A DNA stretch of 32,221 bases from Candidatus Sulfotelmatobacter kueseliae (lineage in GTDB: Bacteria; Acidobacteriota; Terriglobia; Terriglobales; Acidobacteriaceae): assembly GCA_900290255.1 (NCBI GenBank), contig OMOD01000068.1, positions 1-32,221 on the forward strand, in the 5' to 3' direction. The notes under the pieces are model-generated. The model ran no database searches. It was not told the DNA's origin and worked only from the letters and a program-made list of their open reading frames with translations. Shown here in pieces: positions 10,892-29,868 of the stretch (position 1 is its first letter; every line of letters begins with the position of its first letter). A program made the translations under genes and the position numbers.

Positions 10892-11048
10892 CGCGCAAGG
10901 TGAGAACGGCTAATGATAGCTCACTGGTTCTTGAACGGATACGGTTGACCGCTAGTGCCCCGCAAAGGACTCGAACGAGGCAGCGGGTTGTACTGCGAGG
11001 AGCCGAATCAGGTTGTGATCAGAAGCTCAACAAATTCCTCCACGCGAG

Positions 11049-11065
11049 GTTCATGTTTGGTTCAT
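11049..11065. promoter_or_regulatory. Direct-repeat operator, copy 1 (upstream of flavoprotein gene)
   Basis: On the minus strand this reads ATGAAC-CAAAC-ATGAAC, two identical hexamers with an 11-bp period. It is nearly the same over 18 bp as the copy before the TonB receptor gene. It lies 63 bp upstream of the flavoprotein start and just ahead of a possible promoter (TTGACG 11082-11087, GTAAAT 11106-11111). Its orientation is opposite to that gene, unlike the other copies. Confidence 0.65.
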
Positions 11066-11127
11066 TTCATACGCGGACGGCTTGACGCGCAGACGGAAAG
11101 CTGTCGTAAATAAGCGGAGGAGGACGC

Positions 11128-12903
11128 TTGGAAGCAAAGGTCATAGAAACGGATGTGCTGGTGGTCGGTGGCGGGGGAGCTGGGTTTCGGGCCGCCATCG
11201 CCGCCCGGGAGAATAATATCCGGGTCCTCCTCTTGAGCAAGGGGCCGCTGGCCCGCTGTGGGGCAACCCCCATGGCTGGTGCGGACTACACGCTAGACGG
11301 AAGCAGTCTTCATCGATTGGGCTTCCGTGGAGATCCCAAAGATAACCGGGAAAAGTTCTTTAACGATATCGTCACGCAGGGTTACTTTTTGAACAATCAG
11401 AAGTTGGTTGATCAGTATGTCCGTAACGCTCCAGACCGCCTGAGAGAACTGCTGGAGTGGGGTCTGAAGGTCGATTACTCGGAAGAACGCGCGATTGACA
11501 CGTCCGGTATCAACCTCATGAATGTGTTGCTCAGGCGCATGAGAAAGGCAGGTGCGCAAGTACTTGAAGACACCATGTTGCTTGACCTGCTGGTACAAGA
11601 CGGACAAGTAGTCGGGGCACTTGGCCTGGATATCAATACCGGTGAGTTCATCCATTTCAATTGCAAGGCCGTGATTATGGCAACAGGCGGCTGGCACAAA
11701 GCCTTCTGGCCGAACACGGGCATGCGTGACCTTTCCGGGGAAGGCATCGCGATGGCCCACCGGGCCGGAGCCGAGATCGGAAACATGGAGTTCATTACGT
11801 TCTGCTGCAACGTGCTCTTGTCCCCGCCGGTCTGGCGCGGAAGCATTGCCATCTACATCATGGATTTGATTTGCGGAGGGGAACTCACGAATAGAGAAGG
11901 GGAAGTGTTTCTGCGGAAGTATGATCCATACACTGTCGAAACCGGGACGAAGACCGAGTGGAATAAGAGCTTTGTCTCGTTTGCCAGCAGGAAAGAAGTA
12001 ATAGAGGGAAGAGGGTCCCCGCTCGGAGGAGTCTACTACGGAACTGGCAAAGTATCCTGGGAAGACTTCGAACGCTCCGCCATGATGATGTTCCCTAACT
12101 GGAAATACAAGTTGATGGACTTGTCGGAACTCTGCAAGATGCTGCGCAGCCGGGGAAAAGTTGAAGTCGGGCCGGCGGTCGAGTACTTTGACGGCGGCAT
12201 TGTGGTCAACGAGCAGTTCGAAACGAGCGTACGGGGTCTTTACGCTGCGGGGGAGTGTATCCTGGGTCCATTCGGCTCCAACCGCATTTGTTCGGCCATT
12301 ACGGAAATACTCGTCCAGGGCACCGATGCCGGCAGGAACGCGGCCGAGTACGCTGCAAAGGCGAAGACACCGTTCCCGGATGCAGCAGCTTTTGCGACCC
12401 TGCGTGAAGTCGCCGAATTCCCTCTTTTGGGGAAAGACGGCGTGAGGCCAGCTCCACTGAGAAGGCATATTCAGGAAATGGCGCATGAGTACTTAGGACC
12501 AATCCGAAATCAGCAAGGCCTCTCATCATTCATCACAGTTTTGGACGATGCCGCCGCAACCAAGCTGTCCAGTCTTACCGTGTCGTCGCCAGTCCGCAGC
12601 TACAACAAAGAATGGATCGACGCGCTAGAGCTGCGGAACACGGTTCACTTGTTACGAGCCGCGGCCAAAAGCGCGCTCTGCCGCACAGAGAGCCGCGGCG
12701 TCCATTTTCGGAAGGACCATCCGTACACGGACAACGACCACTGGGTTAGGGAAAGCGTCGTGCGGCTTGTCGACGGTAATCTGTGCGTGACCAGTCGGCC
12801 CATAACTGTCACCACCATGACACCGCCTAAAGGGCTGTTGCCGTTTCTGGACATGATGAAGATGATGATGGAAAGCCGCTCGGATGTTGGTGGCGCTCAT
12901 TAG
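11128..12903 (+). CDS. Fumarate reductase/succinate dehydrogenase-like flavoprotein
   Basis: This is a 591-residue protein starting at TTG 11128 behind a strong SD (GGAGGAGGA, 11116-11124). The N-terminal Rossmann motif (VLVVGGGGAGFRAAIAA) and the late FAD motif (VRGLYAAGECILGPFGSNR) place it in the FAD_binding_2 family. The C-terminal helical domain has the family motif RGVHFRKDHPYTDNDHW. The residues that hold dicarboxylates in canonical SdhA/FrdA differ: the QFHP-type histidine is replaced (GNMEFITFCC), and the H-x2-GG histidine is Tyr (VEYFDGG), whereas the Arg of the N-R motif is kept. It therefore probably acts on something other than fumarate. There is no Tat or Sec signal, so it is cytoplasmic. 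It is followed by its own 2Fe-2S partner at 12954 and preceded by operator copy 1. Confidence 0.85.
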   Translation: MEAKVIETDVLVVGGGGAGFRAAIAARENNIRVLLLSKGPLARCGATPMAGADYTLDGSSLHRLGFRGDPKDNREKFFNDIVTQGYFLNNQKLVDQYVRNAPDRLRELLEWGLKVDYSEERAIDTSGINLMNVLLRRMRKAGAQVLEDTMLLDLLVQDGQVVGALGLDINTGEFIHFNCKAVIMATGGWHKAFWPNTGMRDLSGEGIAMAHRAGAEIGNMEFITFCCNVLLSPPVWRGSIAIYIMDLICGGELTNREGEVFLRKYDPYTVETGTKTEWNKSFVSFASRKEVIEGRGSPLGGVYYGTGKVSWEDFERSAMMMFPNWKYKLMDLSELCKMLRSRGKVEVGPAVEYFDGGIVVNEQFETSVRGLYAAGECILGPFGSNRICSAITEILVQGTDAGRNAAEYAAKAKTPFPDAAAFATLREVAEFPLLGKDGVRPAPLRRHIQEMAHEYLGPIRNQQGLSSFITVLDDAAATKLSSLTVSSPVRSYNKEWIDALELRNTVHLLRAAAKSALCRTESRGVHFRKDHPYTDNDHWVRESVVRLVDGNLCVTSRPITVTTMTPPKGLLPFLDMMKMMMESRSDVGGAH

Positions 12904-12953
12904 ATGCCCGGCTATTCCGTTGCCTTGCTTGAAGTAGTTGAGAGGCAAAATTG

Positions 12954-13307
12954 ATGGACTCAGAGACTATCACCGTGACGGTCTTCCGCTTTGAGCCCAC
13001 TTCGGATGAAGAGCCCCATTATCAAAGCTACAAGGTGCCCTTCGAGACAGGGATGAGCGCACTGAACGCTCTCGATTACATCTACCAAAACTTAGATGGC
13101 ACTGTGGCTTACCACGATCATGCAGGTTGCGGCCTGGGGATTTGCGCGAGGTGCACCGTCCTGATCAATGGTAGACGCGGGTTCTTATGCCAGGAAATTA
13201 TTACAGGAGACATCCTGCTGGAGCCAGTCTCAAAGAAGACCGTGATAAGGGATCTTGTGACTCGAATAGGGCCAAGAGATGCCCCCCAGTTCACAGAAAG
13301 GAGCTGA
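12954..13307 (+). CDS. Stand-alone 2Fe-2S subunit (SdhB/FrdB N-terminal type)
   Basis: This is a 117-residue protein with ATG 12954 and GAGG eight bases upstream. It matches only the N-terminal ferredoxin-like domain of the succinate dehydrogenase iron-sulfur subunit. Four cysteines, C59-x4-C64-x2-C67-x11-C79 (AGCGLGICARCTVLING then FLC), bind a plant-type 2Fe-2S cluster. The C-terminal domain with the 4Fe-4S and 3Fe-4S clusters is absent, and no membrane anchor gene follows. It lies 50 bases after the flavoprotein gene and most likely passes electrons to or from that FAD as a soluble two-subunit enzyme. The electron partner is not encoded here. Confidence 0.85.
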   Translation: MDSETITVTVFRFEPTSDEEPHYQSYKVPFETGMSALNALDYIYQNLDGTVAYHDHAGCGLGICARCTVLINGRRGFLCQEIITGDILLEPVSKKTVIRDLVTRIGPRDAPQFTERS

Positions 13308-13423
13308 CTCTCGACCTATATGGCGGCAGGGTGTTCGCCTGCCAAGAAAAAGGAAAAATTCGCCATGATTGGCCTTGCAGACGTGCAGAAGTGATAGAGC
13401 GCTTGCTAAGAGGGTCGCGACTG

Positions 13424-14497
13424 TCACGATAAATAGCTCCTTAGTGCTGTAGGCAGCGCATCGCACATCTGACAAACCCGCGGCAAGACTCGAATAGCTG
13501 TCAGCTTGATTTGGGGAGAAAGAAACCCGTCGCGAACCGGCTCGTCGCGGAGCAGATCGGTCGTTAGATACTTTTTGTTATCGTCGGGAAAAACAGTTAC
13601 AACGATCGCATCGCCGCCGAGGTCATTCTGAATTTGAGTAGCTGCTGAGAAATTGCAGCCAGATGAGATCCCAACGCCGAGGCCAATCTCCCTCGCCAGC
13701 GTTTTTGCCATCACGATCGAATCGCCGTCGGAGATGGAAATGACTGAATCGAGCTGGCATAGGTCCAGAATCGGTGGAATAAACTCATCGGAGATGCCTT
13801 GGATGCGGTGGTGTCCGATCTTGCATCCGGTGGACAGGGTTGGGGATTCGGCCGGTTCGACGGGATGAATACGAATATCTTTCCGGGCAGTCCTGAGAAA
13901 TCGGCCTACCCCCATCACTGTTCCGCCGGTCCCGACTCCCGCGACGAATGCACCGGGCACAAGGTCCGAATTACCTAATTGAAGCCAAATTTCGCGACCC
14001 CTGGTGAGTTCGTGTGCCTCTACATTGGCGCAGTTGGAGAACTGGCGCGGTAGAAAGACGTTTGATTCGTCACTGGCCATCTCTTCCGTTTTGCGAATAG
14101 CACCAATGAACCCTCCCTCCTCGCGACTTACGGAGACAACACGGGCGCCGTAGCTCTGAATTAGCTGCTTGCGTTCGGTGCTCATCCAGTCGGGCATAAA
14201 AATCGTGACTGGGTGCCCAAGGGCAGTTCCAATCGCAGCGAAGGAAATCCCGGTGTTCCCGCTTGTCACCTCGACAATCTTGTCGCCAGGCGTGAGCCGA
14301 CCACTTACGTAGGCGGTACGGAGAATATGAAGCGCCATCCGATCCTTTATGCTGCCGGTCAGGTTCAGATGCTCGCATTTTGCATAGACGGCTCTGAGGC
14401 GACCGCGAAAGAAGAAGTCGATCGCCAGCATCGGTGTGTTACCGATCACACGTGCCAATGCGGCAAATCTCGAAAGAAGTTCAGTTTCGGAGGGCAT
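13424..14497 (-). CDS. Cysteine-synthase-family PLP enzyme
   Basis: This is a 357-residue fold-type II PLP enzyme. The cofactor lysine is K51 in [11 protein letters not shown]. The substrate-binding loop is TSGNTGIS, the phosphate-binding glycine loop is [10 protein letters not shown], and the pyrimidine-binding Ser lies in GISSGCN. The family joins O-activated serine with a thiol or other nucleophile, or does the reverse beta-elimination. It is about 50 residues longer than CysK, with a C-terminal tail ending in VCQMCDALP (a C-x2-C). It is closest to the SbnA/cystathionine beta-synthase-like branch, a placement made from memory. Being the last gene of the operon, after a cysteine-dioxygenase-like gene, suggests a role in thiol chemistry, not housekeeping cysteine supply. 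I chose ATG 14497; a TTG at 14515 is in frame. Confidence 0.85.
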
Positions 14498-14598
14498 TCG
14501 ATCCCTATCATCCAATCCATCCGGTGCGGTGCCTTTAATAGCCTCGTATAACTGTTATGTCCCTAGCTTAGCTAAGGCCGAAACAGACTAAAGCCCTC

Positions 14599-15177
14599 TC
14601 AACAAACCGCTCTGTCCTTCCGGATCCCGTACTCGGAAGTGTAGACCAGATCAACATCTCTGCATGTTTTCTGATCTTCCGAAAAAACCGTGCAACTGCT
14701 GAAGGGACGGGAGTATATGTGGAAGCTGATAGCACGGTTGCCAAATTCACGAGGGTTGAACACCTTGCGCACGGGAGAATTGGGATTCACGGCCACAGGA
14801 TCGGTCGGATCCATTTCGATGACATCAGCCTTTTCAATGCGGCACCTTCCGGCATCGAGGTCTTGATCTAGAATATGATAATTCTGCACGATGAGCTTAC
14901 CCATCGGCACGGCCATCCAGCAGTTCTGGTCGTTATGATTGTGGATCGCACTGATCTGTCCAGTTTCCCAACAGATGGCAAGCAGCTCGTAAAGCGAGCA
15001 GGCGTTCATTTTTTGTTCAATTTGCGCGACGACCTGGAAAAGCGAACAGCGTTGATTCCACCCATGGAATGCCTTTTGCTCGGTCATCGCAACGGTGTGG
15101 ATCGCCTCCCCAGTCTCCATCAACAGCTGTCGCTCGCGCAGAACGTCAGCGAAACGACCAGGTTGCCGACGGGCCAA
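14599..15177 (-). CDS. Cysteine-dioxygenase-like cupin with an altered metal site
   Basis: This 192-residue protein matches type I cysteine dioxygenase. These enzymes oxidise a thiol to a sulfinate at a non-haem iron held by three His. Two ligands are present (H79 and H81 in SAIHNHNDQNC), as are the Cys of the Cys-Tyr cofactor (C86) and the S-x-H-x-Y triad (S151, H153, Y155 in ISFHIYSRPF). The third ligand normally lies in an H-x-V-x-N motif about 15 residues before the triad His. Here the matching sequence is VRKVFNP, so Arg (R137) replaces His. The Arg that binds the cysteine carboxylate in mammalian enzymes is not obvious either. It may use another substrate or have lost activity. It starts at TTG 15177, overlapping the upstream gene by 32 bp; ATG 15120 is an alternative. 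Confidence 0.75.
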   Translation of the reverse strand: MARRQPGRFADVLRERQLLMETGEAIHTVAMTEQKAFHGWNQRCSLFQVVAQIEQKMNACSLYELLAICWETGQISAIHNHNDQNCWMAVPMGKLIVQNYHILDQDLDAGRCRIEKADVIEMDPTDPVAVNPNSPVRKVFNPREFGNRAISFHIYSRPFSSCTVFSEDQKTCRDVDLVYTSEYGIRKDRAVC

Positions 15178-16036
15178 CGAACTTAAGCACGGACTGCCCC
15201 AACCGACGCTCCTTCTCGCGTTCCGCCAGATTTCGAGCGCGCATTTTGATCTCTCTTATGCCGCGAACACGATCTGTCGCCGGAATCACAAGCAGCATAA
15301 AATCGGGTCCGTGTAGGGCGACGACATCCTCGTTTTGCTTTCTCTCGATTTGGTAGCCTAGGTGAAGGCAGAAGTCGATCAGACTGTTTGCAGCATCCGC
15401 ATCGGCCGCCACTGTCAACCCGACCACGTCTTCCAGGCGTGGTTCATCTACCGGATTGAGGACTTCGGAATAGCGCTGGAGAATTTCCTTACGCGAGATG
15501 CCCCGGTTTGTTCCCTTCGGTTGCGGGTTCCAGTGGCCCAAAAACTCAGGGTGGTATTCCATCACCCAGCAACTCAATCCACTTTCATAGGGAAGGCTCC
15601 TTGACGTCGCCATAAAGAACCAGGGAATCTGCTTGCCCTGGTACAGCCGAGTCACTGACTTCAAACTTGGTTCGAGACTCGGGCCAAGCTTTTCCTGTAA
15701 GACTTTTATGCTTCCCGGTTGGTCCACTCCAAAAGCAATCGCAGAATCTCCGACGCAATCCTTGGGAGAATTTCCGATGTCAAAGAACTCAAAATAGGTA
15801 TTGATCCCATAGAAGTAGAGACCAGTGTAGGTCATATCCGCGTTTGTCGTCGTTCGCTTTTCATTAACCGCGAAATGCTGACGCAGAAACGCATCGTCTT
15901 CGACTGCCTTGTAAGTGGGGGAATCCAGGACCACATAAAAGTGATTCAGGAAGACTTGAGGCAATGAATCCGGTTGAGGAGCTGTCATAGAAGCTTGCGA
16001 GACAGGAGCCGAGGGGTCAAGGGATTTCCTTCTCAC
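15146..16036 (-). CDS. DUF5829-like protein (possible VOC/glyoxalase fold)
   Basis: This is a protein of about 296 residues. GTG 16036 has GGAGG six bases upstream; the frame is open to 16051. The core FLNHFYVVLDSPTYKAV then MTYTGLYFYGINTYFEFFD has the alternating beta pattern of vicinal-oxygen-chelate proteins and matches my recollection of DUF5829. A second half (VGLTVAADADAANSLIDFCL) looks like a repeat of that fold. The exact function is unknown. It overlaps the dioxygenase-like gene by 32 bp and so is translationally tied to it. A metal-dependent isomerase, lyase or binding role in the same pathway is possible. The N-terminus has no clear signal peptide. Confidence 0.7.
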   Translation of the reverse strand: MRRKSLDPSAPVSQASMTAPQPDSLPQVFLNHFYVVLDSPTYKAVEDDAFLRQHFAVNEKRTTTNADMTYTGLYFYGINTYFEFFDIGNSPKDCVGDSAIAFGVDQPGSIKVLQEKLGPSLEPSLKSVTRLYQGKQIPWFFMATSRSLPYESGLSCWVMEYHPEFLGHWNPQPKGTNRGISRKEILQRYSEVLNPVDEPRLEDVVGLTVAADADAANSLIDFCLHLGYQIERKQNEDVVALHGPDFMLLVIPATDRVRGIREIKMRARNLAEREKERRLGQSVLKFVGPSATWSFR

Positions 16037-16085
16037 CGTTGTCCTCCGCACAAGAACAAGGAACCGAAAATGTCGAAAGCATGAG

Positions 16086-17282
16086 TCACGCCGGGTCCCT
16101 GAGTTCTACCGCCAGAGCCTGTGTGTGGTTCTCGCGGCGAAGCCATAGCCCTCCAACCAACGCGATACCTGCGACCGCACAGATGAGACCATAGCCAGTT
16201 GTATAGCTTCCAGTTTTGTCAACAGCCAGCCCTACGAGAAGCTGGACGACAAACCCCAGACCATACAGGAACGAGCACAAGCCATACACGTATCCGGACT
16301 GCGCATTCCCAAACATAAGCGGCGGCAAGGCGTAAAAGGCGGGCATGCCTATCGCCATGGAAATACCAAATAGGCTTGAGGAAACTGCAGGTGGAACGAT
16401 GCGGGTAATTAGCAACAGTACACTTAGGATGAAAAGAAATGACGCTACGACCACGTAACTCGCGGCGTTGTTTTTTCGAAGAAAAGAGGAAAGGAAGGGT
16501 TTCAAGCTGAGAGCCACCCAGGCGTATATTCCGACGATTGCGGATGCTGCCGCGAGACCATACCCGCATCGCACGAGATAATCTGACGTGAAGGTCAGAT
16601 AAGCCTCCGTAGAAACGTTGTAACCTGCAAAGACGACCGCTAACATCCAGGCAGCCATCCTGTGGCTAGGCGGCAACGAAGCCACCGCCGCACCACTCTT
16701 GTTCGAACCTGGGGACGCGGAAGGAACCGACAGCATCATGAAGAGGCCGAAGGTCGCGAGTGCAACCAGCAGCAACATTGCCCGTTGCCAGCCGGAGTGT
16801 TGCCCAATTCTGCCCAGCACAAACAGGCTGGCGTACACTCCTGCAGTCATGCTCATGCTGTAAAAGCCCATGATAAGGCCGAACTCTTTTCGGCCCTCAA
16901 ACCATACCGCGAGCAACTTTGGTCCGGCCACGAGGTGACCGGTCAGCCCAGCTGAAGAGATTACTCGTCCCAGGCACAGCATCCAGAAACCCGATGCGCC
17001 AGCCATCAAGGCCGTACCTGCAACAATCAGAGCCCAAAGTGAAAGGAACAGGCGACGAAGGCGGACTCGGTCAGCCAACCAACCAGCTGGTAAGGATGCG
17101 CAGGCAGAAACCAAATACCAAAGCCCCGTCAAGGCACCTGCCTGTGTCCGCGAAATGCCGAGGTCTCTCACCCAAAGAGTCAAGAGGGGGAAGGGAGCAG
17201 AAAAGATCATAATCCCGGCTGCCGTTGTGAGCAGCACCAGGCCCAGGACAAACCAGCGGAAATTCTCTTTGGGTGGCGGCAA
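16086..17282 (-). CDS. MFS transporter
   Basis: This is a protein of about 398 residues with some twelve hydrophobic helices and a central cytoplasmic loop (VPSASPGSNKSGAAVASLPP). The MFS motif between helices 2 and 3 is visible as GWLADRVRLRRLF. It resembles MFS_1 members that carry organic anions. In this operon it would move the substrate or a product across the inner membrane. TTG 17282 is chosen because AAGGA (17293-17289 on the minus strand) lies six bases upstream. A TTG at 17306 adds eight residues but lacks an SD. It is 88 bp after the thioesterase gene and 49 bp before the DUF5829-like gene. Confidence 0.85.
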   Translation of the reverse strand: MPPPKENFRWFVLGLVLLTTAAGIMIFSAPFPLLTLWVRDLGISRTQAGALTGLWYLVSACASLPAGWLADRVRLRRLFLSLWALIVAGTALMAGASGFWMLCLGRVISSAGLTGHLVAGPKLLAVWFEGRKEFGLIMGFYSMSMTAGVYASLFVLGRIGQHSGWQRAMLLLVALATFGLFMMLSVPSASPGSNKSGAAVASLPPSHRMAAWMLAVVFAGYNVSTEAYLTFTSDYLVRCGYGLAAASAIVGIYAWVALSLKPFLSSFLRKNNAASYVVVASFLFILSVLLLITRIVPPAVSSSLFGISMAIGMPAFYALPPLMFGNAQSGYVYGLCSFLYGLGFVVQLLVGLAVDKTGSYTTGYGLICAVAGIALVGGLWLRRENHTQALAVELRDPA

Positions 17283-17370
17283 GTGCAGTCCTTGGCTCTG
17301 ATTCAATCAGTTAGTGTGTTGTGGTGCACATCGGATGATTGGGGCACCGCTTTTCCTTTCAGCCGTTTCC

Positions 17371-17772
17371 TTATCCTGTTTTCTCCTGCGCTGGTGTAGC
17401 GTAAAGGCCACGGCCGATCGCAACGACTTGACCCTGCTCATCCTTGACTTCTACGTCTGCCACACTGACCCGCCGGCCAACTTTAACCGTCCGCGCAATT
17501 GCCGTGAGACGACCGCGCTTTGTTGGTCGCAGATAATCTATCCGAAGATCCAGCGTTGGCACGTCTCCCCCGGTCTTTGAGTAGACTGCGTAATCACCTG
17601 CAATATCAATGAGCGCGCTTACAATTCCTCCGTGCAACCAGTCCGAGCCATCCTCGCGTAGGAACTCTTCGCGAAATGGCATACGAATCTCGACTAAACC
17701 CTCTTCGTATCGAGTCAGTTCCAAACCCAGAAAACGTTGATATGGCGACTCCGAAAGATCAGGCTGGTTCAT
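17371..17772 (-). CDS. PaaI-family hotdog thioesterase
   Basis: This is a 133-residue single-domain hotdog protein of the PaaI/4HBT type. The catalytic helix signature WLHGGIVSALIDIAGDYAV contains the HGG motif with the nearby Asp. The rest is a beta sheet (LDLRIDYLRPTKRGRLTAIA). Such enzymes hydrolyse acyl-CoA thioesters, often aryl-CoA or dead-end CoA esters. Its ATG lies inside the end of the ligase gene (14-bp overlap), with GAGGAG ten bases upstream. It is therefore coupled to the enzyme that should make the thioester and may edit or release its product. Confidence 0.85.
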   Translation of the reverse strand: MNQPDLSESPYQRFLGLELTRYEEGLVEIRMPFREEFLREDGSDWLHGGIVSALIDIAGDYAVYSKTGGDVPTLDLRIDYLRPTKRGRLTAIARTVKVGRRVSVADVEVKDEQGQVVAIGRGLYATPAQEKTG

Positions 17773-19318
17773 GTTGAACTTTCTCCTCGAATTCCGCCGC
17801 GAGTTTCTCCAGTTGGGCCCGGTCTATTTTTCCTGTGCCGCCCAGTGGCATTGAGTCGAGGAAGTAGATGCGGCGTGGGTAGGCATACGGTGCGCCATAT
17901 TTCAAGAAGAACTGCTTGAGTTCCTCTGCGGAAGTGCTTCCGGTCCCCGATTGCACGATGAATGCAACTGGAACAGCCCCCTTGATCGGGTGACGTATCG
18001 GCACAACATAGGCCTCCCGGACATTCGGATGCCGCAGAAGAATATCGACAATCTCCTTGGGATAGACATTTTCGCCGGATACATTGATCATGTCATCTTT
18101 GCGTCCCACGAAGTAGAAGAAACCGTCCTCGTCACGACGCATGAGGTCCCCCGTATAGAGCCACCCGTCGCGGAACTTCTTTTTGGTGACCTCGGGAAGC
18201 TTCCAGTAACCCTTGGCCAGCCCAGGATTGCGGGTAATAAGTTCACCCACCTCGTTAGGGCCTAATTCGGTGATACCATCCTCGCTGACGATTTTGACAT
18301 CAGAGCCGGGAATCTGCCTTCCGCAACTCCCGCGTTTGATCAGCCCGTAGCGGCAATTGCTAATCGGGTCGGGCCCACCTTCCGTCAAGCCATAGCTTTC
18401 TGCAATGATCGCCTCGGGGAAGGTTCTTTGAAATTCAGACACCAACTCTTCCGAAACCTCCGCGGAGCCGCACACTGCGTAGCGCAGCGATTTCACGTCG
18501 TTCCTGCTCAGTTCTTCCTTTTGCGAGAGGATCCTGGAAAACATAGCCGGTACTCCGGTCATGTACGTCACTTTGTAGCGCGCGATCGACCTTATGACCT
18601 GTACCGGATCGAAGCCTGGCAAAATGACCATCGATCCTCCGCAGAGCAACATGGGTTTGACCGCTCCGAGCATTGCGTTCTTGTGATAAAGCGGGACCGC
18701 CACTAAAGCTCGCTCCCTGTCATCGAACGCCTCGAGTTTGCACAGCAAATCTACATTCCAGATCTGCCCGCCATGCGTCAGAAGAACACCCTTTGGCTTG
18801 CCCGTCGAACCGGACGTGTATGGCTGAAGACATACCTCATCGAATGCTGTCTTTCTGCGCGCAAACAAAGGAGAAGCAGCCTGGAGCATCTGATCATAAT
18901 TCAGAGACGTGCCTGTCGCCTCCCCATCTACAATGAAGTGCCGCACCCCTGGAAACTGGGGGACCAGAGAGCGCGCACGCGCAGCCATCTCCCAATTGGC
19001 GATAAGGACCACCGCTTCGGAGTCGACGACAACATACGTGAGCGCCTCATCTCCCATCCGAATATTCAGAGGTACCGGGACTGCACCCAGGCGCATCGCT
19101 CCCATGAGCGACTCGATGAAGCGGTAATCATTGCTGAACATAAGGGCAACGCGGTCGCCTGGCCCGATCCCAAGGTTCACCAGCGCATTGGCCATCCGGT
19201 TGCATCGCTCATCCAAGTCCTTAAAGGTGAGAACAACGTCGTCTTGCAAAATGACCGGCGACAGGGGCTGAATTTGAAGTGGGACATCAAAGAGGTAGCC
19301 AAGATTCTCTGGTAGCAT
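17759..19318 (-). CDS. AMP-forming acyl-CoA synthetase/ligase
   Basis: This is a 519-residue ANL-superfamily enzyme that activates a carboxylic acid with ATP and normally transfers it to CoA. All core motifs are intact: the P-loop YTSGSTGKPKGV (about 167-178), SYGLTEGGPD, the adenylate-binding GWLYTGDL, the hinge GRKDDMINVSGENVYPKEIV and the C-terminal catalytic lysine in GGTGKIDR. The length fits medium-chain, aryl or short substituted acids, but the substrate cannot be read from the sequence. Its start overlaps the end of the reductase gene by 32 bp and its end overlaps the thioesterase by 14 bp, so the three form a coupled unit. Confidence 0.9.
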   Translation of the reverse strand: MLPENLGYLFDVPLQIQPLSPVILQDDVVLTFKDLDERCNRMANALVNLGIGPGDRVALMFSNDYRFIESLMGAMRLGAVPVPLNIRMGDEALTYVVVDSEAVVLIANWEMAARARSLVPQFPGVRHFIVDGEATGTSLNYDQMLQAASPLFARRKTAFDEVCLQPYTSGSTGKPKGVLLTHGGQIWNVDLLCKLEAFDDRERALVAVPLYHKNAMLGAVKPMLLCGGSMVILPGFDPVQVIRSIARYKVTYMTGVPAMFSRILSQKEELSRNDVKSLRYAVCGSAEVSEELVSEFQRTFPEAIIAESYGLTEGGPDPISNCRYGLIKRGSCGRQIPGSDVKIVSEDGITELGPNEVGELITRNPGLAKGYWKLPEVTKKKFRDGWLYTGDLMRRDEDGFFYFVGRKDDMINVSGENVYPKEIVDILLRHPNVREAYVVPIRHPIKGAVPVAFIVQSGTGSTSAEELKQFFLKYGAPYAYPRRIYFLDSMPLGGTGKIDRAQLEKLAAEFEEKVQHEPA

Positions 19319-20339
19319 TCAAAGGGCCTCGATCTGTCACAGTCAAAACGGATTTCCCAAAGACTTTGCGATCGATCAACTCCTGCAGTGCCTGCGGAGT
19401 CTCTGAAAGCGGTCTCGTCGAATGTATGACCGGCTTAAGCTTTCCTTCGACAACCATGTTCATCAGTGTGGTCTGATCCTCGTAGGTCCACCCGTCAGAC
19501 CCGATGATTTGCAGCTCAAAACTCCATATGTAGCGCAGGTCCTCCGCAGGTGCATAGCCAGCGGTCGCACCGCAGACCAGAAGACGGCCCTGATGTCTCA
19601 ACACTTTGAGCGAAGGCACCCAGGTGTCTCCACCGATGTAGTTCACAACTACGTCCACGCCACCACCGCCCATGTAGCTTGGTTTGCCGAACCGCTCGCG
19701 CACTGCCTTCAGAATGTCTTCCCTGGATGTGTCGATTACATGGGTGGCTCCGATTTCCTTGAGTCGGCTGAGCTTCCACTCCGCGCTTCCGCAAGCGATT
19801 ACCTCGGCCCCGGCGGCGGCGGCCAGCTGAACACAACAGGTCCCCACACCGCCTGTTGCGCCAAGAATCAGTACTTTCTCGCCCGCTCGTATCGCTCCAC
19901 GCGTCTGCATCATGCGCAGTGCTGTGCCGTATGCAATCGGGAGGGCGGCTGCATCGACAAACGAGAGTCCTTCCGGCATTCGCAAAAGGTTGGTTACCGG
20001 CATGGTCACCAGTTCGCGGCACGCTCCAGGGAGAGTCTCACCCGTCATTCCCCGGCCCTCGATGTATGGGTACGGACAAACGCGATCACCGACCTTCCAG
20101 GTGCCGCCATCCACGGAAGACCCCAAAGCAACGATTTCTCCCGAGAAGTCGCCTCCAGGGCTCATCGGAAAAGGCGTCTTGAGCGAGGTCGTACCCCTCA
20201 GAATCATCGGGTCAAACCCATTCAGCGAAACAGCCCTGACCCGAATAAGCACTTCATCCGCAGCAGGAGTCGGTGCGGGGACTTCCTCGTACTTGAGGTT
20301 TTCAACACCGCCGTGGCTGTGAAAGACGATCGCTTTCAT
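19287..20339 (-). CDS. Zinc-free medium-chain dehydrogenase/quinone oxidoreductase-like
   Basis: This is a 350-residue medium-chain dehydrogenase/reductase with start ATG 20339 (MKAIVFHSHGG); the frame is open to 20453 but the fold begins at this Met. The GroES-like domain (about 1-135) keeps GGDFSGEIVALGSSVD but lacks the structural and catalytic zinc cysteines, as in quinone-oxidoreductase or enoyl-reductase types. The nucleotide-binding motif LILGATGGVGTCCVQLAAAAG is intact and suits NADP(H). It would reduce an activated C=C or a carbonyl. It is the first gene of the seven-gene operon and is preceded by operator copy 2 and a -10-like TTATAT (minus strand, 20438-20433). Confidence 0.88.
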   Translation of the reverse strand: MKAIVFHSHGGVENLKYEEVPAPTPAADEVLIRVRAVSLNGFDPMILRGTTSLKTPFPMSPGGDFSGEIVALGSSVDGGTWKVGDRVCPYPYIEGRGMTGETLPGACRELVTMPVTNLLRMPEGLSFVDAAALPIAYGTALRMMQTRGAIRAGEKVLILGATGGVGTCCVQLAAAAGAEVIACGSAEWKLSRLKEIGATHVIDTSREDILKAVRERFGKPSYMGGGGVDVVVNYIGGDTWVPSLKVLRHQGRLLVCGATAGYAPAEDLRYIWSFELQIIGSDGWTYEDQTTLMNMVVEGKLKPVIHSTRPLSETPQALQELIDRKVFGKSVLTVTDRGPLNATRESWLPL

Positions 20340-20432
20340 TCGACGTTCTTGTCCCGTTGCAGAGAAACGAAAATCACCTCGCCCCACACACGCGTTACGA
20401 ATCGCTCGAACGACGGTCACCCGCCCCTGACG

Positions 20433-20474
20433 ATATAACACAACGTCATGCAACGGTGTTCATTTAGAGTTCAC
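20433..20474 (-). promoter_or_regulatory. Direct-repeat operator copy 2 and predicted operon promoter
   Basis: On the minus strand GTGAAC-TCTAA-ATGAAC (20474-20458) has the 11-bp period. TTATAT (20438-20433) follows the second hexamer after 19 bp, so that hexamer occupies the -35 position of a promoter for the operon starting at 20339. The same site lies 58 bp upstream of the divergent regulator gene and could also control it. Confidence 0.65.
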
Positions 20475-20532
20475 TTTTTCAGTTAAACGAAATCGCGATT
20501 GCTGCCAAAACAGCGACAAGGAATATCGGCAA

Positions 20533-22380
20533 GTGTCATGTGCCATAATAATGACAACTCAAGAGCCAGCGTCCATGGCTTCAGCGCAGAAATCGGCCTT
20601 TTCCCCCACCGCGCTTGCGCAGGTCTACGAGTTTGGCCCCTTCCGAATTGATGTCCGGGAACGTTTGCTCTTTTGTAATCAGAGACTTGTGTCTCTACCT
20701 CTGAAGGTCTTCGAGACGCTGTTGTTCCTGGTGCAACAGAATGGTCACATCGTTGGCAAGTCAGAACTTACCAGGAGACTCTGGCCCGATACCCACGTCG
20801 GCTCGCGGAGTCTCGCCCAAAACATCTTCTTGCTTCGTAAGGTCTTGGGCACCCCGTACTTGCAGTTCATCGAGACCGTCCCTAGGCGGGGTTACCGGTT
20901 TGCCGCGCCGGTTCAATTTACTCAGGAAGGGAGCAAAACCGATAACGTACAAGTCGGGCATCCCACGCGCGCCGGTGCTCTCATTATTCGGCAATTGGCG
21001 GTTCTTCCGTTCAGGTTTCTTGGCGAGGAAAGGATACCCGAAGCAGAATACTTAGGCATCGGGCTTGCAGACGCTCTGATCTCGAAGCTGAGCAATGTAG
21101 AAGAGTTGCTCGTTTGTCCGACAAGCTCGGTCTTGAAGTACATGAAGGTTAGCCAGGGCTTGGTCGAAATCGGGCGAGAATTGGAAGTCGATCTGATCCT
21201 TGAGGGCAAGTTTCAGGCCTATGGTTCCAGAGTTCGCGTCACCTTGCAACTCGCGAGCGCCTACAACGGGGCTGCGCTCTGGGCCGATCGATTTGACTGC
21301 AACCTGGCCGATGTATTTGCGCTTCAGGAGGCCATTTCTGAGGGAGTGATCCAATCATTAAACCTGAAGTTGAGCGGGGCGGAGAGGGCCCGGCTGGCCG
21401 CTCGTCATACGAACAATGCCGAGGCGTACAAGTACTATCTGAAGGGCCGTTTCCATTGGAACAAACGAACCGTACAGAGTCTTCTGAAAGCGATCGAAAG
21501 CTTTGAGTGCGCTCTGAAAAAAGATCCAATCTATGCACTAGCCTATTCCGGGCTCGCAGACTGCTACAACATTTTATCTTTTTACGGTGCGTTTGCTCCC
21601 AAAGACGTCTTCCCAAAAGCCAAAGCGGCAGCGAACAAGGCGCTTGAGATTGACCCCGACATTGTGGAAGCCGCCACTTCTATGGCCTTTGCCAGTCTGG
21701 CATTTGAGTGGAACTGGGCGGAAGCGGAGAGGTGGTTCAATCGTGCCTGGGAGCTCAACCCAAGTTACCCCACCGCCCACCAGTGGTTTGCGGAATACCA
21801 GCTTGCTATGGGGCGTCTGAATCAAGCGGTAGTGGCCATCACCCGCGCGCAAGATCTCGATCCACTGTCGGTCAGCATCAACCGACAAGTAGGGTGGATG
21901 CTTTGCTACGCACGCAAATACGACTCGGCCATTGAACAGATCCAAAGCACACTCGAAATGGACCCCGACAATGCGTACCTGTACCACGACCTTGGATTGG
22001 CCTACATCCACTCCAACAAACCGATGGAGGCCATCACCGCACTTCAAAGAGCCAACAGTTTGTCTCCTGATGATCCAGAAATGCCTGCGTTCTTGGCGTA
22101 TGCTTACGGCGTGGCAGGTCACCAGAAAGAAACCCAGGAGATTCTCGACCAATTGAGGGAGATGTCGGCGCGGAAGTATGTGTCACCGTTCTTATTTGCG
22201 ATTGTTCACGTGGCGCGAGGGGAGAAGGACCTTGCGTTCCGGTTTTTGAATCGAGCTTTCGAGGAACGCTCCAATTGGTTGATTTACTTGAACGTGGACC
22301 CGGCTCTCGACGTTTTGCGCCCGGATCCCAGGTTCCAAGATTTGCAAATCAGGATGAAATTGCCTTCCATCAATTGCTGA
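20533..22380 (+). CDS. Winged-helix (OmpR/CadC-type) regulator with TPR domain
   Basis: This is a protein of about 615 residues. Residues 31-128 form an OmpR/ToxR-type winged helix: FGPFRIDVRERLLF, then LPLKVFETLLFLVQQNGHIV, and the wing FIETVPRRGYRFAAPV. A TolB-like/FlgO-like middle domain follows (about 150-285; LAVLPFRFLGEE, LGIGLADALISKLSN), then about eight TPR-like repeats (300-600; for example ALEIDPDIVEAAT). There is no membrane helix, so it is a cytosolic one-component regulator. The TPRs probably sense a ligand or partner protein. It diverges from the seven-gene operon with an operator between them. OmpR-type winged helices bind direct repeats of 11-bp period, as found at four sites here, so it is the natural candidate to bind them. 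The start is GTG 20533; ATG 20551 or 20575 are alternatives. Confidence 0.9.
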   Translation: MSCAIIMTTQEPASMASAQKSAFSPTALAQVYEFGPFRIDVRERLLFCNQRLVSLPLKVFETLLFLVQQNGHIVGKSELTRRLWPDTHVGSRSLAQNIFLLRKVLGTPYLQFIETVPRRGYRFAAPVQFTQEGSKTDNVQVGHPTRAGALIIRQLAVLPFRFLGEERIPEAEYLGIGLADALISKLSNVEELLVCPTSSVLKYMKVSQGLVEIGRELEVDLILEGKFQAYGSRVRVTLQLASAYNGAALWADRFDCNLADVFALQEAISEGVIQSLNLKLSGAERARLAARHTNNAEAYKYYLKGRFHWNKRTVQSLLKAIESFECALKKDPIYALAYSGLADCYNILSFYGAFAPKDVFPKAKAAANKALEIDPDIVEAATSMAFASLAFEWNWAEAERWFNRAWELNPSYPTAHQWFAEYQLAMGRLNQAVVAITRAQDLDPLSVSINRQVGWMLCYARKYDSAIEQIQSTLEMDPDNAYLYHDLGLAYIHSNKPMEAITALQRANSLSPDDPEMPAFLAYAYGVAGHQKETQEILDQLREMSARKYVSPFLFAIVHVARGEKDLAFRFLNRAFEERSNWLIYLNVDPALDVLRPDPRFQDLQIRMKLPSINC

Positions 22381-22725
22381 GCACGTTAGCTGAAGACTTG
22401 CCGATCAAAACCTCACGCCTGTCTCGAAAATGAACAACAAATGAACGTACTTCACACCCGTCTCTATTGTATCTTCATCCCGTCACTGGGGAACTCCTCT
22501 GTGGTCGACGCAGAGTCCCTCAGAAGGTTGCACCAACACAAGCGTTGTAAGCGAGACTGACGCAAGCCAAATTTTGGTAGCGGTTCGTGGCACTCATCGT
22601 ACCGAAGTTCGCAGTGAAGAAGAGAAATGGCGCTGGGGTTAGGTTCTGGCGCGGTGCAGTGAAACGCACGTTTTGCAACTGAGGTCGAACGCGAATCTGT
22701 CGGGGCCATCGGAAGGAGGAGAATC
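22381..22725. other. Regulatory intergenic region before the first amidohydrolase
   Basis: These 345 bases contain operator copy 3 (22430-22446) with a -10-like TATTGT and end in the SD of the amidohydrolase gene. Minus-strand frames cross it (22464-22781 and 22520-22813), but they have no SD and run into the coding region, so I treat them as shadows. The predicted 5' leader of about 250 bases is long and could hold further control. Confidence 0.45.
22430..22470 (+). promoter_or_regulatory. Direct-repeat operator copy 3 and predicted promoter
   Basis: ATGAAC-AACAA-ATGAAC (22430-22446) has the 11-bp period. TATTGT (22465-22470) follows the second hexamer after 18 bp, so this hexamer again takes the place of the -35 box. 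It points toward the amidohydrolase gene at 22726. Confidence 0.7.
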
Positions 22726-24120
22726 GTGAACCCAAGGTTGCTAATGATTCTTTTTGTGCTGTTGAAGCCAACTTTCGGCACAGCTCAGCCCGCTGCCAAT
22801 TCAACTCCCGCACTCACCACCGTTGCGATCATACACGCAACCTTGGTTGATGTACGCACGGGAAAAGAAACTCCCAACAGCGTCATTGTGATTCGAGGGG
22901 ACAAGATCGAACGAGTAGGAACTTCCTCTGAAGTCTCAGTGTCTTCGTCCTCTCAAGCCCTGGTTGTGGATGCCGCGCAAAAGTGGGTCATCCCTGGTTT
23001 GATGGATATGCACGCTCATGCGGGAAACTCTCCGGAGGTGCCAGTCAACCTGTATTTGGCTCAAGGAGTGACCACAATCCGATCCCCGGGCGGCAATATT
23101 TCATTGTTACGCCTTCTTCGCGAGCAGATCGAGTCAGGAAAAACGGTTGGCCCACGGCTCTTCTTTTCCGGCCCCCTCCTGGACGGCAATCCCCCGGTTT
23201 GGCCGGATGGCAGCTTCATAGTGGACAGCCCGGAGCGCGCGCAAAGCACCGTCGATTTCCTCGCCGATCAGGGAGTAGATTTCATTAAGGTGTACAACAA
23301 TCTGTCTGAACCTGTGCTCGCGAAAATCATCGAAACCGCGACGCGACGCGGCTTGATTGTTGCCGGGCACATCCCGCGTTCCATGACGATGACCAGGGCA
23401 GTCGAGCTTGGTATGAAGAGCCTGGAGCATATTCGCATCACCGGCCGGGAAATGCTGCCACTCGACGTAGCGAATCAGATCGATTTTCTTCCGCTCGGCC
23501 AACGAGAGCCTTTGCTGTGGGAAAGGTTTGATCTCACCGCTCCGAAGTTTACGGAGCTCATCCACCTTCTCGCCGAGAGGGCGGTTTACCTGGACCCGAC
23601 GTTGACGGTCGATGAGGGTGACTTTGTCTTAGGACCGGTCGCGCAACACAACAATCCGAACAACTCGGTCCTTCCGCTGGAGTGGATTAAGTTTGAAGAA
23701 TCCCACCAGAGCCCACTTTTCGAGGTTCCGGACAAGCTCAAGGCGATAGCCCGGGAGGGATTCAAGAAGAGAGAAGAATTTGTAGGAATGTGTAATCGTG
23801 CGGGCGTAAAGATCATTGCAGGGACGGACGGACCGGGATTGGGTACCCTCGTTCCGGGCTATGGCCTCCATCATGAGCTGCAGCTATTAGTGGAATCGGG
23901 GCTAAGCCCCTTGCAAGCGCTCAGGGCCGCAACGCTGACCGCGGCGGAAGCACTTGGCAAAGACAAAGAGGTCGGATCCATTGAGTCCGGCAAATTGGCT
24001 GACATGCTGATCGTTGATGCGGACCCATTGGTAGACATTGGAAATGCAAGCAAAATCGAGCTCATCATTAAGGGCGGCAAGCAGTACAGGCCTGCAGATC
24101 TGCTCAAGAACAATCCCTGA
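22726..24120 (+). CDS. Secreted metal-dependent amidohydrolase 1
   Basis: This is a 464-residue protein starting at GTG 22726 behind AAGGAGGA. A Sec signal peptide covers residues 1-20 (LLMILFVLLKPTFGTAQ). The amidohydrolase barrel shows the binuclear metal set: H96 and H98 (MDMHAHAG), the carboxylated lysine K188 (FIKVYN), H215 (VAGHIP), H235 (SLEHI) and D368 (AGTDGPG). The C-terminal LGSIESGKLADMLIVD-like segment is the usual second beta domain. It belongs to the imidazolonepropionase/prolidase-like group, whose periplasmic members cleave amide bonds of N-acyl amino acids or proline dipeptides. The exact substrate is unknown. It lies upstream of the TonB-type receptor, separated by a second operator. 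Confidence 0.9.
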   Translation: MNPRLLMILFVLLKPTFGTAQPAANSTPALTTVAIIHATLVDVRTGKETPNSVIVIRGDKIERVGTSSEVSVSSSSQALVVDAAQKWVIPGLMDMHAHAGNSPEVPVNLYLAQGVTTIRSPGGNISLLRLLREQIESGKTVGPRLFFSGPLLDGNPPVWPDGSFIVDSPERAQSTVDFLADQGVDFIKVYNNLSEPVLAKIIETATRRGLIVAGHIPRSMTMTRAVELGMKSLEHIRITGREMLPLDVANQIDFLPLGQREPLLWERFDLTAPKFTELIHLLAERAVYLDPTLTVDEGDFVLGPVAQHNNPNNSVLPLEWIKFEESHQSPLFEVPDKLKAIAREGFKKREEFVGMCNRAGVKIIAGTDGPGLGTLVPGYGLHHELQLLVESGLSPLQALRAATLTAAEALGKDKEVGSIESGKLADMLIVDADPLVDIGNASKIELIIKGGKQYRPADLLKNNP

Positions 24121-24150
24121 TCTGGCACCGGTATTTCCTTCGTCAGAAAC

Positions 24151-24168
24151 CCTGCATTCCGTTGCAGG
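24151..24168. other. Short hairpin between amidohydrolase 1 and receptor operator
   Basis: CCTGCA-TTCCGT-TGCAGG forms a perfect six-pair stem 30 bases after the amidohydrolase stop and two bases before operator copy 4. It has no T-run, so termination is uncertain. Confidence 0.35.
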
Positions 24169-24170
24169 AA

Positions 24171-24211
24171 ATGAACCAAAAATGAACCTGCGTAGGAGGG
24201 CTCAGGATTAT
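24171..24211 (+). promoter_or_regulatory. Direct-repeat operator copy 4 and predicted promoter
   Basis: ATGAAC-CAAAA-ATGAAC (24171-24187) has the 11-bp period and matches copy 1 almost base for base. GATTAT (24206-24211) follows after 18 bp. It points toward the TonB-type receptor gene at 24371 and would leave a leader of about 150 bases. Confidence 0.7.
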
Positions 24212-24370: not shown

Positions 24371-27300
24371 ATGCATCGGTTTAACCGCATCTTTTTCTCT
24401 TTCTCGCTGGCTATTACTGTGTGCACTGCGATTCTCGCGTGGCCACAGACGTCGACCACATCGCTACGCGGAACCATACTGGATAAGACCGGAGCGACTC
24501 TTCCACAAGCCACGGTTACCCTCTCCAGCCCCGAGCAGGGGTTTTCCCGGACGACAAAAACCAGTCAGGCAGGAGGCTATGAATTCGTTCAAGTTCCTCC
24601 AGGCACCTATCAGCTAACGGTTCAGATGGCAGGCTTTAGAAAAGCAGAGCAGAGAAACGTGCAGTTGCTCGTTGGTACACCCGCGACGATCAACATAACG
24701 ATGGAGGTCGGTTCGATCAGCGAGACCGTAGAAGTAACCGGCAAAGCTCCGCTGGTGAATACGCAGGATGCCACTCTGGGACACGCGTTCGACGCCAACC
24801 AGATCGCAAGTCTTCCATTTGAAGGTCGCGACCCCACAGGAATCCTGAGTCTGCAGGCGGGCGTCGTGTTCACCGGCAATGGTACGCATATCAAATCTGG
24901 TTCCGATAGCCGTAGCGGTTCGGTCAATGGCGCTCGCAGCGACCAAACCAACGTGACCCTTGATGGCGTAGATAACAACGATCAGCTTCTCGGCACCGCG
25001 TTCCAGGGTGCCGTGCGTGCGCCACTAGATTCGCTGCAAGAATTCAAAGTAACGACCAGCAACTCTGATGCAGATAGCGGCCGCTCATCTGGTGGACAGG
25101 TATCGCTGGTGACAAAAAGCGGCACAAACCATATTCACGGCGGAGTGTACGAGTATTACCGTCCCACGTTCACCACGGCAAACGACTGGTTTAACAAAGC
25201 GGTCCAGCTCAATTCCGGGGAACCCAACACGCCCCCCTTCCTATTGCGTAACACCTTTGGAGCATTTCTGGGGGGGCCGATCAAGAAGGACCGACTATTT
25301 TATTTCTTGGCCTACGAAGGCCAGCGCAAGCGTGAAAACATACCGGTTACGCGAGTAGTGCCCAGCGCCAATCTTCGGAACGGGATCATGCAGTATCCGT
25401 GCGTCGGTAGCGCAGGATGCCCACCGAGCGGAATTCAGACCTTGACCGCGGCGGACTTGGCCAGCATGGATCCCAACTGCTCGGGCTTAGGAACTTGCCC
25501 TTTGGGACGGGGACCAAATCCTGCTGTGGAAGAAATCTTCCAGCAATACCCGCTGCCCAACACCGACACCGTGGGCGACGGACTTGACTTCCGCGGATTC
25601 TCCTTCTCTTCCCCTCTGCCCGCAAAACTGGATGCGTATGTCGCCAAAGTCGACTACAATCTAACTGCAGACGGGAACCACCGGATTTTCGTGCGCAGCA
25701 TCTTGAACAATGATAATCAGTCAGGTCGCACCAGTTCCAGTCCCACTGCCGCTGCCAGTCCCACCTCGATTACAGGCGATGGAGGAGAGCAGTTCCCCGG
25801 ACAGCCTCAGCAGAGCGTGCTCCGCGATAACAATAAAGGCCTCAGCGTAGGATATGCGGCGACTCTCAGCAACACTTTGATTAATAACTTTCACTTTGGC
25901 TTCGCAAGAGAGGGGTTAGATCAGGCAGGCCTACAAACTCGGGCCTATGTAGACTTCCGTGGACTGGATAACATCACCGCACAGACTCCCACGATTAACA
26001 CCAATGTTCCTGTATTCAACTGGGTTGACGACATCGCCAAGATCAAGGGCCGCCACACGCTGCAATTTGGCACAAACATACGCCGGGTGGACAATGAGCG
26101 CGTGTCCAATGCGCAGTCTTTTTTCTTTGCCCAAACAGATGTCTACTGGTTGCCAACCGCTTGCATCGCGAACTGTGGAACCAGTTTGGATCCCGCAGTT
26201 GTTGGTTTTCCGCCGGTGGAAAGTTCGTTCGGCGCCAGCTACGATTACGCTGTCGCTGCGCTTGCTGGTCTGGTCACGCAGGTCTTCTCGAATTATCAGC
26301 TGACGAAAAATCTGTCAGTGCTCCCCCAGGGGACGCTTTCACCTCGCCATTTTCGCGACTGGGAATACGAATGGTACGCGCAGGATGCATGGCGAGTTAA
26401 ACCCAATCTCACGCTCACCTATGGTCTGCGGTACAGCCTGCTGGAGCCACCCTACGAAACTACCGGAACCCAGGGGTCTCCGACGATAAGTCTCAACAGC
26501 TATTTCAAGAATCGCGCGGCTGCGATGTTGCAGGGCCAGGTCTATGATCCGGTAATTTCGTTTGGATTGTCGGGCCAAGCCAACGGAAAAGCACCGTACT
26601 GGGCTTGGGATTACAAAGATCTTGCGCCACGCCTTGCGCTCGCTTTCGCTCCAAGTGGCAATAGTGGATGGGGAAGGAAACTGTGGGGTGGAGCGGGACA
26701 AACCTCGATTCGCCTTGGATATGGAATTTATTACGATCACTTCGGTGAAGGCATTACCAATACATTCGATCGCAACGGTTCGTTCGGATTAACGACCGCC
26801 ATTAGCAATTCAGCTGGTGTTCAGACCGTGGACGGATCAGCTCGCTTCTCTGGTCTGTATACTCTTCCCACTACAAGCCAGTCGCCGACGTTCTCGTGCT
26901 CTGCGAATTGTCCGATTGTTGAACCGCCTCCCGAGGGTCCATTCCCGGTTACGCCGCCCTTAGGACCTTTCAATGGCGGGTTTGCTGCCTACTGGGGGCT
27001 AGACGATAAATTGAAAACGCCGTATTCACATGTTGTGGATTTTTCCATCACGCGGCAGTTGCCGAGAGGCCTTGTGTTTGAAGCTTCATATGTTGGCCGC
27101 TTTGCGCACCGTCTGCTGCAGGAGGAAGACCTTGCGCAACCGACGGACTTGGTCGATCCAAAGACGGGGATGGATTACTTCCAGGCTGTGCAAGCTTTAG
27201 CCAAGCAATACTACGCGGGGACTCCGATTCAGAACATCACCCCGCAAACCATCGGAGCCAAGGCTTATCAATACTGGCAGGATGTGTTTCCTGGAGCAGC

Positions 27301-29811: not shown

Positions 29812-29868
29812 GTAGTTGCTGCGAAGTATGGGAGTGCATGATCGACTGTGCCTTCGAGGAGGGATCAG

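Follow-up and report, generated by a model that had tools for sequence, protein, structure and literature searches.

Tandem 11-bp repeats restricted to one acidobacterial gene cluster are candidate operators of an adjacent winged-helix/TPR regulator

INTRODUCTION

A 32,221-nucleotide stretch of Candidatus Sulfotelmatobacter kueseliae DNA (contig OMOD01000068.1), analyzed here over its whole length and called the window, carries several copies of a short direct repeat around a gene for a winged-helix/TPR regulator, which raises the question of whether these repeats are the operators through which that regulator controls its neighbors. Tandem OmpR-type sites with a hexamer-N5-hexamer layout near -35 are familiar from the PhoB, PmrA, and PhoP boxes, whose regulators carry receiver domains. 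HilA combines a winged helix with TPR repeats, and the HilA box consists of hexamer-N5-hexamer direct repeats over -35. AfsR, a SARP of Streptomyces, has an OmpR-type domain and a TPR part and activates from two 11-bp direct repeats (the afs box), the upstream one overlapping the -35 element (PMC10936776). Acidobacteriota have many winged-helix/TPR regulators, and a search of an open-licence literature collection showed no article that treats their binding sites, judged by title or the start of the abstract.

RESULTS

The repeats are confined to one gene cluster

A preliminary description of the window had reported four copies of RTGAAC-N5-ATGAAC, and all four are exact, lying at 11049-11065 (-), 20458-20474 (-), 22430-22446 (+), and 24171-24187 (+); shuffled versions of the window hold a mean of 0.01 copies and at most 1 (100 shuffles). 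A genome-wide scan, also proposed there, covered 5,391,637 bases in 198 contigs (completeness, 96.1%; contamination, 8.46%) and returned 4 exact copies, every one in this cluster, and 0 for the reversed-pattern control. With up to one mismatch allowed, there are 30 matches versus 9 for the reversed control.

All four sites share RAA ahead of the first hexamer and A-M ahead of the second, giving a repeat unit of approximately RAARTGAAC with a period of 11 bp, and the extended element RAARTGAACNNNAMATGAAC matches each of them. At up to three mismatches this element is found at 43 places in the genome versus 20 for the control; its 4 exact copies and its single one-mismatch copy all fall within the window, and four two-mismatch places lie outside it. 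Since the 4 exact genomic copies and the one near-copy are all in one cluster, a tandem operator set restricted to that cluster is well supported. A further weak match (12/16) lies at 20334 in the window.

Box 1 (GAAATGAACCAAACATGAAC, 11049..11068, -) lies 59 bp before a flavoprotein open reading frame (ORF) that starts with TTG at 11128. The box is inverted with respect to the flavoprotein gene and, in its own reading direction, faces a recombinase gene. Box 2 (AAAGTGAACTCTAAATGAAC, 20458..20477, -) lies between a seven-gene operon and the divergent regulator gene and points to the operon. Box 3 (AAAATGAACAACAAATGAAC, 22427..22446, +) is upstream of the first amidohydrolase gene, and box 4 (GAAATGAACCAAAAATGAAC, 24168..24187, +) is upstream of the gene for an outer membrane receptor, whose start was placed by eye at 24371, before a signal peptide. 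Box 5 (AAATTGAACAAAAAATGAAC, 15004..15023, -), the sole one-mismatch copy in the genome and absent from the preliminary description, lies inside a cysteine-dioxygenase (CDO)-like ORF and reads toward the rest of the CDO gene and the gene for a PLP enzyme. The statement that each site stands upstream of a gene of the locus is thus borne out for position but not for the orientation at 11049, which faces away from the flavoprotein gene. The related statement that no copy lies in coding DNA holds for the four exact sites, with site 24171 being intergenic on condition that the receptor begins at 24371 (the mechanically called ORF starts at 24038), and fails for the one-mismatch extended copy in the CDO-like ORF.

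The second hexamer had been assigned to the -35 position, and this placement stands at three of the four exact sites, where a hexamer matching TATAAT in at least 4/6 positions follows it after 17-18 bp: TGTTAT at site 20458 (17 bp), TATTGT at 22430 (18 bp), and GATTAT at 24171 (18 bp), all of them weak. TTATAT, the hexamer originally named for site 20458, is 19 bp away and scores 3/6. Sites 11049 and 15004 have no hexamer of this quality in the 17-19 bp range, and at 11049 none of the hexamers at 15-20 bp is -10-like, with at most 2/6 positions matching. When 12,020 intergenic combinations of position and strand were tested across the window, 6.2% had a hexamer of at least 4/6 at 17-19 bp; three of four by chance would have a probability of about 0.001 (binomial), the spacing range itself having been taken from the preliminary description.

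Genes of the cluster

On the plus strand, a fumarate-reductase-like flavoprotein gene (11128..12903) is followed by one for a 2Fe-2S protein (12951..13307; Fer2_3 in Pfam). The seven-gene operon, called from strand and close spacing and divergent from the regulator, lies on the minus strand. Its genes one to seven encode a zinc-dehydrogenase/quinone-oxidoreductase-like protein (19287..20453; start ATG at 20339, by eye), an acyl-CoA ligase family protein (17759..19318; below the cut-offs of named families), a hotdog thioesterase (17371..17772), an MFS transporter (16086..17306; weak MFS matches below cut-off), a DUF5829 protein (15146..16051), the CDO-like protein (14599..15177; Pfam CDO_I, 39.8 bits with a cut-off of 23, and no NCBIfam match), and a cysteine-synthase-like PLP enzyme (13424..14515). 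Past the regulator, the plus strand carries amidohydrolase 1 (22726..24120), the outer membrane receptor (24371..28387; a beta-barrel OMP_b-brl_4 domain and a CarboxypepD_reg domain), amidohydrolase 2 (28450..29811), and amidohydrolase 3 (29848..31668), which has a C-terminal extension and scores below the cut-offs of named families.

A tyrosine recombinase gene (9800-10891, -) adjoins the cluster, which, given this neighbor, may be an acquired island. A stretch near 10970 resembles a tRNA 3' end by eye, and ARAGORN finds no tRNA in the window. Outside the cluster, a gene that looks HipA-like by eye lies at 5665-6897 (-).

The regulator gene

In the candidate binding regulator (20533..22380, +; 615 amino acids), Pfam recognizes a winged helix of the OmpR type together with TPR repeats. 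Its Trans_reg_C domain scores 42.5 bits against a curated cut-off of 26.2, which upholds the earlier assignment of an OmpR/PhoB-type winged helix, and solved structures related to this domain include RegX3 and CadC. The Pfam scan of the regulator gave no Response_reg (receiver) match and no BTAD match, and by eye no transmembrane helix, a feature of ToxR and CadC, was seen. The protein therefore has the HilA-like one-component layout of winged helix plus TPR without a receiver (Pfam); the HilA box and the window box differ in their words, and the HilA box belongs to another kind of target. No other large ORF among those read between 11 and 32 kb resembles a transcription factor.

No orthologue of the regulator was found among the matches listed from 300 family genomes, in a search that scored 4 candidates per genome; the other listed matches are at most 44% identical, most of them over the part after the winged helix. 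A short-pattern scan of the genome contig collection returned no relative of the regulator.

Tandem GAA repeats beside related regulators

Because no orthologue was found, we examined the box rule one level up, on similar winged helices. A winged-helix search gave a match at 1e-16 in 130 of 300 family genomes, our own included. Neighborhoods were fetched for 59 loci from this search and for 30 from earlier searches (one in genome G112); these, together with shorter loci from the regulator and winged-helix searches, yielded 106 regulators with at least 250 nt of upstream DNA, or 98 after removal of similar upstream regions, the window included. In the 150 nt that precede the winged helix in these 98, near-perfect 9-mer repeats occur with a period of 10 in 8 regulators, 11 in 13, 21 in 6, and 22 in 8, with 0 to 4 for other periods; 150-300 nt upstream, period 11 occurs in 1 and period 10 in 5. 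An initial form of this test, on 44 upstream regions that lacked the 60 nt nearest the winged helix, gave a small excess, with 11 at period 11, 10 at period 21, and 1 to 7 at others. Where the winged helix is at least 45% identical to that of the window (61 nonredundant regulators, window included), period 10 is found in 8 and period 11 in 12, with 0 to 2 for each period from 12 to 20, and the frequency of period-11 repeats is 12/61 in this subset versus 1/37 in the rest.

The repeats share a GAA core. In the 61 upstream regions, the strand that leads away from the regulator carries 20 GAA pairs spaced by 11 bp and 11 pairs spaced by 22 bp, against 0 to 5 for any other spacing, and the opposite strand has a smaller peak, with 14 at 11 bp and 12 at 22 bp (other spacings, 0 to 9). 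When the window is left out, 20 away-strand pairs at 11 bp remain, in 14 of 60 regulators (shuffles: mean, 2.5; maximum, 9; 1000 shuffles); the 11-bp pair is absent from the other 46 of these 60 relatives. The remaining genes of these loci, 581 in number, show no GAA peak (22 pairs at 11 bp; other spacings, 8 to 28); from this control, winged-helix genes and repeats were excluded, and 48 genes lying no more than 400 bp from a winged helix were set apart. In those 48 genes, the sense strand has 8 pairs at 11 bp, more than at any other spacing (1 to 5), and the opposite strand has 0. A first control of 672 genes, with some winged-helix genes and repeats left in, had given 44 pairs at 11 bp, 35 at 22 bp, and 11 to 30 at other spacings. 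A general intergenic excess of 11-bp repeats in the fetched loci was also considered and is weak, with 75 at 11 bp versus 59, 65, and 48 at 10, 12, and 13 bp, and 105, 90, and 83 at 7, 14, and 21 bp.

When the same rule is applied to both strands, GAA arrays of period 10 or 11 point away from the regulator in 21 of 105 relatives and inwards in 8 of 105, with 4 having both; by another score, an array is present in 30 of 106 regulators, and its period is 11 in 18 of them, 10 in 9, and some other value in 3. The arrays are thus frequent and not universal, and their orientation is a tendency. Among the 27 arrays of period 10 or 11 (106 regulators), 21 carry GAA in at least two units on the away strand, and for 20 the distance to the winged helix is 25-61 nt; many arrays of the relatives sit near the regulators' own start codons. 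Tandem 10/11-bp GAA repeats are associated with the genes of this winged-helix subfamily.

The window box and the relatives' arrays have the same period and the same GAA core, and box 2 has the same orientation as well, at a greater distance from its regulator's winged helix than most relatives' arrays. These repeats beside similar regulators suggest that the boxes of the cluster are read by the adjacent winged-helix/TPR regulator. In 21 array-bearing relatives, which were chosen for having an array, each fetched locus (7 to 20 kb) contains exactly one match when up to four mismatches are allowed, and that match adjoins the regulator gene. With one box in each relative and, in the window, four boxes plus the near-copy at 15004, the window regulator looks like a member of a local class whose operator has spread over a whole cluster.

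Box letters and the recognition helix

Among the 21 relatives, the recognition helix VEEANLTVNISALRK pairs with the box TTTGGAAYTT, VEEGNLNKNIF(L/V)LRK with TTCCAGAAYTT, VEESNLAQNIFVLRK with CTGAGAA, and VEENNLNQNIS with TTCAGAA at a period of 10; in the window, the helix is VGSRSLAQNIFLLRK and the box is AAATGAACC. The window box has a T before GAA, which is seen in none of the 21 relatives. Distances between boxes correlate with distances between recognition helices (r, 0.70; 0 of 2000 permutations as high), and the correlation with the rest of the domain is 0.77. A helix-specific code beyond ancestry is not borne out, as the partial correlation of box with helix is 0.18 if the window is included (132 of 2000 permutations) and 0.03 if it is left out (720 of 2000); ancestry alone can explain the pattern, since the rest of the domain correlates as strongly and the partial correlation is low. 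In eight aligned regulators of the TTTGGAA group, the array is kept and so is much of the remaining upstream region.

Cluster genes and the box word in other genomes

A 3.7-kb contig (C440, locus L073) of G112, a genome of another genus in the same family, holds relatives of the MFS transporter (80% identity over the last 46 residues), the DUF5829 protein (76%), and amidohydrolase 1 (58%; convergent) together, so this grouping has been seen twice. The contig carries no box, with two three-mismatch matches versus 4.6 expected, and none was found in the approximately 1.1 kb of it upstream of the amidohydrolase relative. The best G112 match to the regulator is 36% identical, and no orthologous regulator was seen among the matches listed there. 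DUF5829 itself has only 3 matches in 347 genomes of the order (own included), a match in our own genome only among 45 of the genus, 4 loci in the genome contig collection, and no match in plasmids.

The preliminary description had tied all the named genes into one control circuit. This is partly supported by the cluster-bound boxes and by the MFS/DUF5829/amidohydrolase 1 neighborhood recurring in G112. The missing box upstream of the amidohydrolase relative there does not bear it out, and because box 1 is reversed, it is position that links the flavoprotein to the circuit.

Of 300 family genomes, among them our own, 136 carry at least one exact match to the 12-base core. The exact RAARTGAACNNNAMATGAAC word occurs at 10 places in 5 of 398 family genomes (own included), four of the ten being in the window, and the reversed control gives single matches in two other genomes. 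tblastn found no winged-helix gene in the stretches of 4.6 to 20 kb fetched around five of the other exact places and the adjoining sixth (G365, G393, G258, and G234), nor was there one in the stretches fetched around five copies of the core (G006, G140, G221, G122, and G101). As no winged-helix gene was found in these stretches, the exact motif was rejected as a marker of similar regulators elsewhere, and an RTGAAC-N5-RTGAAC copy near a distant regulator in locus L088 was taken as chance. In G365, the word AAAATGAAC stands three times in tandem at 11 bp (L206, G365:C243:20894-20924), and the 11.6 kb of DNA fetched there yielded no winged-helix gene. Two near-identical stretches of at least 300 bp containing ATGAACACTTTATGAAC lie 14.5 kb apart in G101 (contig C4; L071 near 9647 and L072 near 4115) and are a repeated element.

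DISCUSSION

We consider it probable that the regulator gene at 20533-22380 encodes the protein for which the boxes are tandem operators, bound head to tail by its winged helix, with activation as the likely outcome and one signal for the cluster. Two winged-helix domains would bind head to tail, one per 11-bp unit and on the same face of the DNA, and in front of the seven-gene operon, amidohydrolase 1, and the receptor operon, the downstream unit would replace the -35 element. Since the downstream unit lies in the -35 place, activation through contact with RNA polymerase is the likely mode; the precedents of AfsR (PMC10936776) and HilA favor tandem binding and activation. The TPR part would probably serve in sensing or oligomerization, and a single signal could govern how one substrate is taken up (receptor), hydrolyzed (amidohydrolases), and processed further (operon and flavoprotein). 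We infer each of these elements, namely, binding, activation, signal, and substrate. The reversed box 1 is unexplained by a strict PhoB-like activator.

AfsR resembles the window regulator in having an OmpR-type DNA-binding domain with TPR, 11-bp direct repeats, and weak promoter elements (PMC10936776). Unlike the SARPs, the window regulator has no BTAD in the Pfam scan and comes from a different phylum; the 3' repeat is 8 bp from the -10 element in SARPs (PMC10936776) and 17-18 bp from it at the window sites. Unlike PhoB, PmrA, and PhoP, it has no receiver in the Pfam scan.

The same regulator might instead use the boxes as repressor operators, blocking the -35 elements and the CDO gene until a ligand is sensed. 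The boxes overlap the -35 position at three promoters, box 5 is intragenic, and the relatives' arrays are often near their own start codons, as in autorepression, all of which would fit; however, direct repeats over -35 combined with poor promoter elements are the layout of an activator such as AfsR (PMC10936776). We hold repression to be rather unlikely, and it is still a serious rival to activation. It is improbable that the boxes belong to a regulator encoded elsewhere in the genome, with the winged-helix/TPR gene a bystander: the exact extended word at 6 places in 4 other genomes, in fetched stretches where tblastn found no winged-helix gene, could be read that way, but the genome has no copy with up to one mismatch outside the cluster, which fits a local regulator, and 10/11-bp GAA arrays associate with the genes of this very subfamily. 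Even less can be said for chance or for a dispersed repeat of small size. Exact matches in 136 of 300 family genomes show the 12-base core to be no rarity, but four exact copies fall within 13 kb of 5.39 Mb with a control of 0, the extended form matches all four sites, and the flanks are unlike by eye past about 20 bp. On the shuffle counts, the genome-wide count, and the fit of the extended form, we reject chance, and a chance or dispersed-repeat origin is hardly credible.

The window is a sharply marked candidate regulon in which the receptor, three amidohydrolases, and an unusual sulfur/CoA gene set are grouped as one likely pathway. The relatives supply approximately 20 regulator-box pairs, so that sites become predictable and testable with single domains. 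Tentatively, and with somewhat less than even confidence, we propose an operator code for the Acidobacteriota winged-helix/TPR subfamily, in which each gene may have a private GAA tandem box (10/11 bp) beside it, with letters that would track the recognition helix. Most of these would be single-box switches, and in the window the spread to five places would have produced the private regulon of a rare catabolic cluster. Divergent from regulators of the TTTGGAA group are putative ORFs of 226-303 amino acids without a Pfam match, at L140 8902-9711, L143 3080-3829, L144 8958-9638, L160 3039-3950, and L164 10349-11134.
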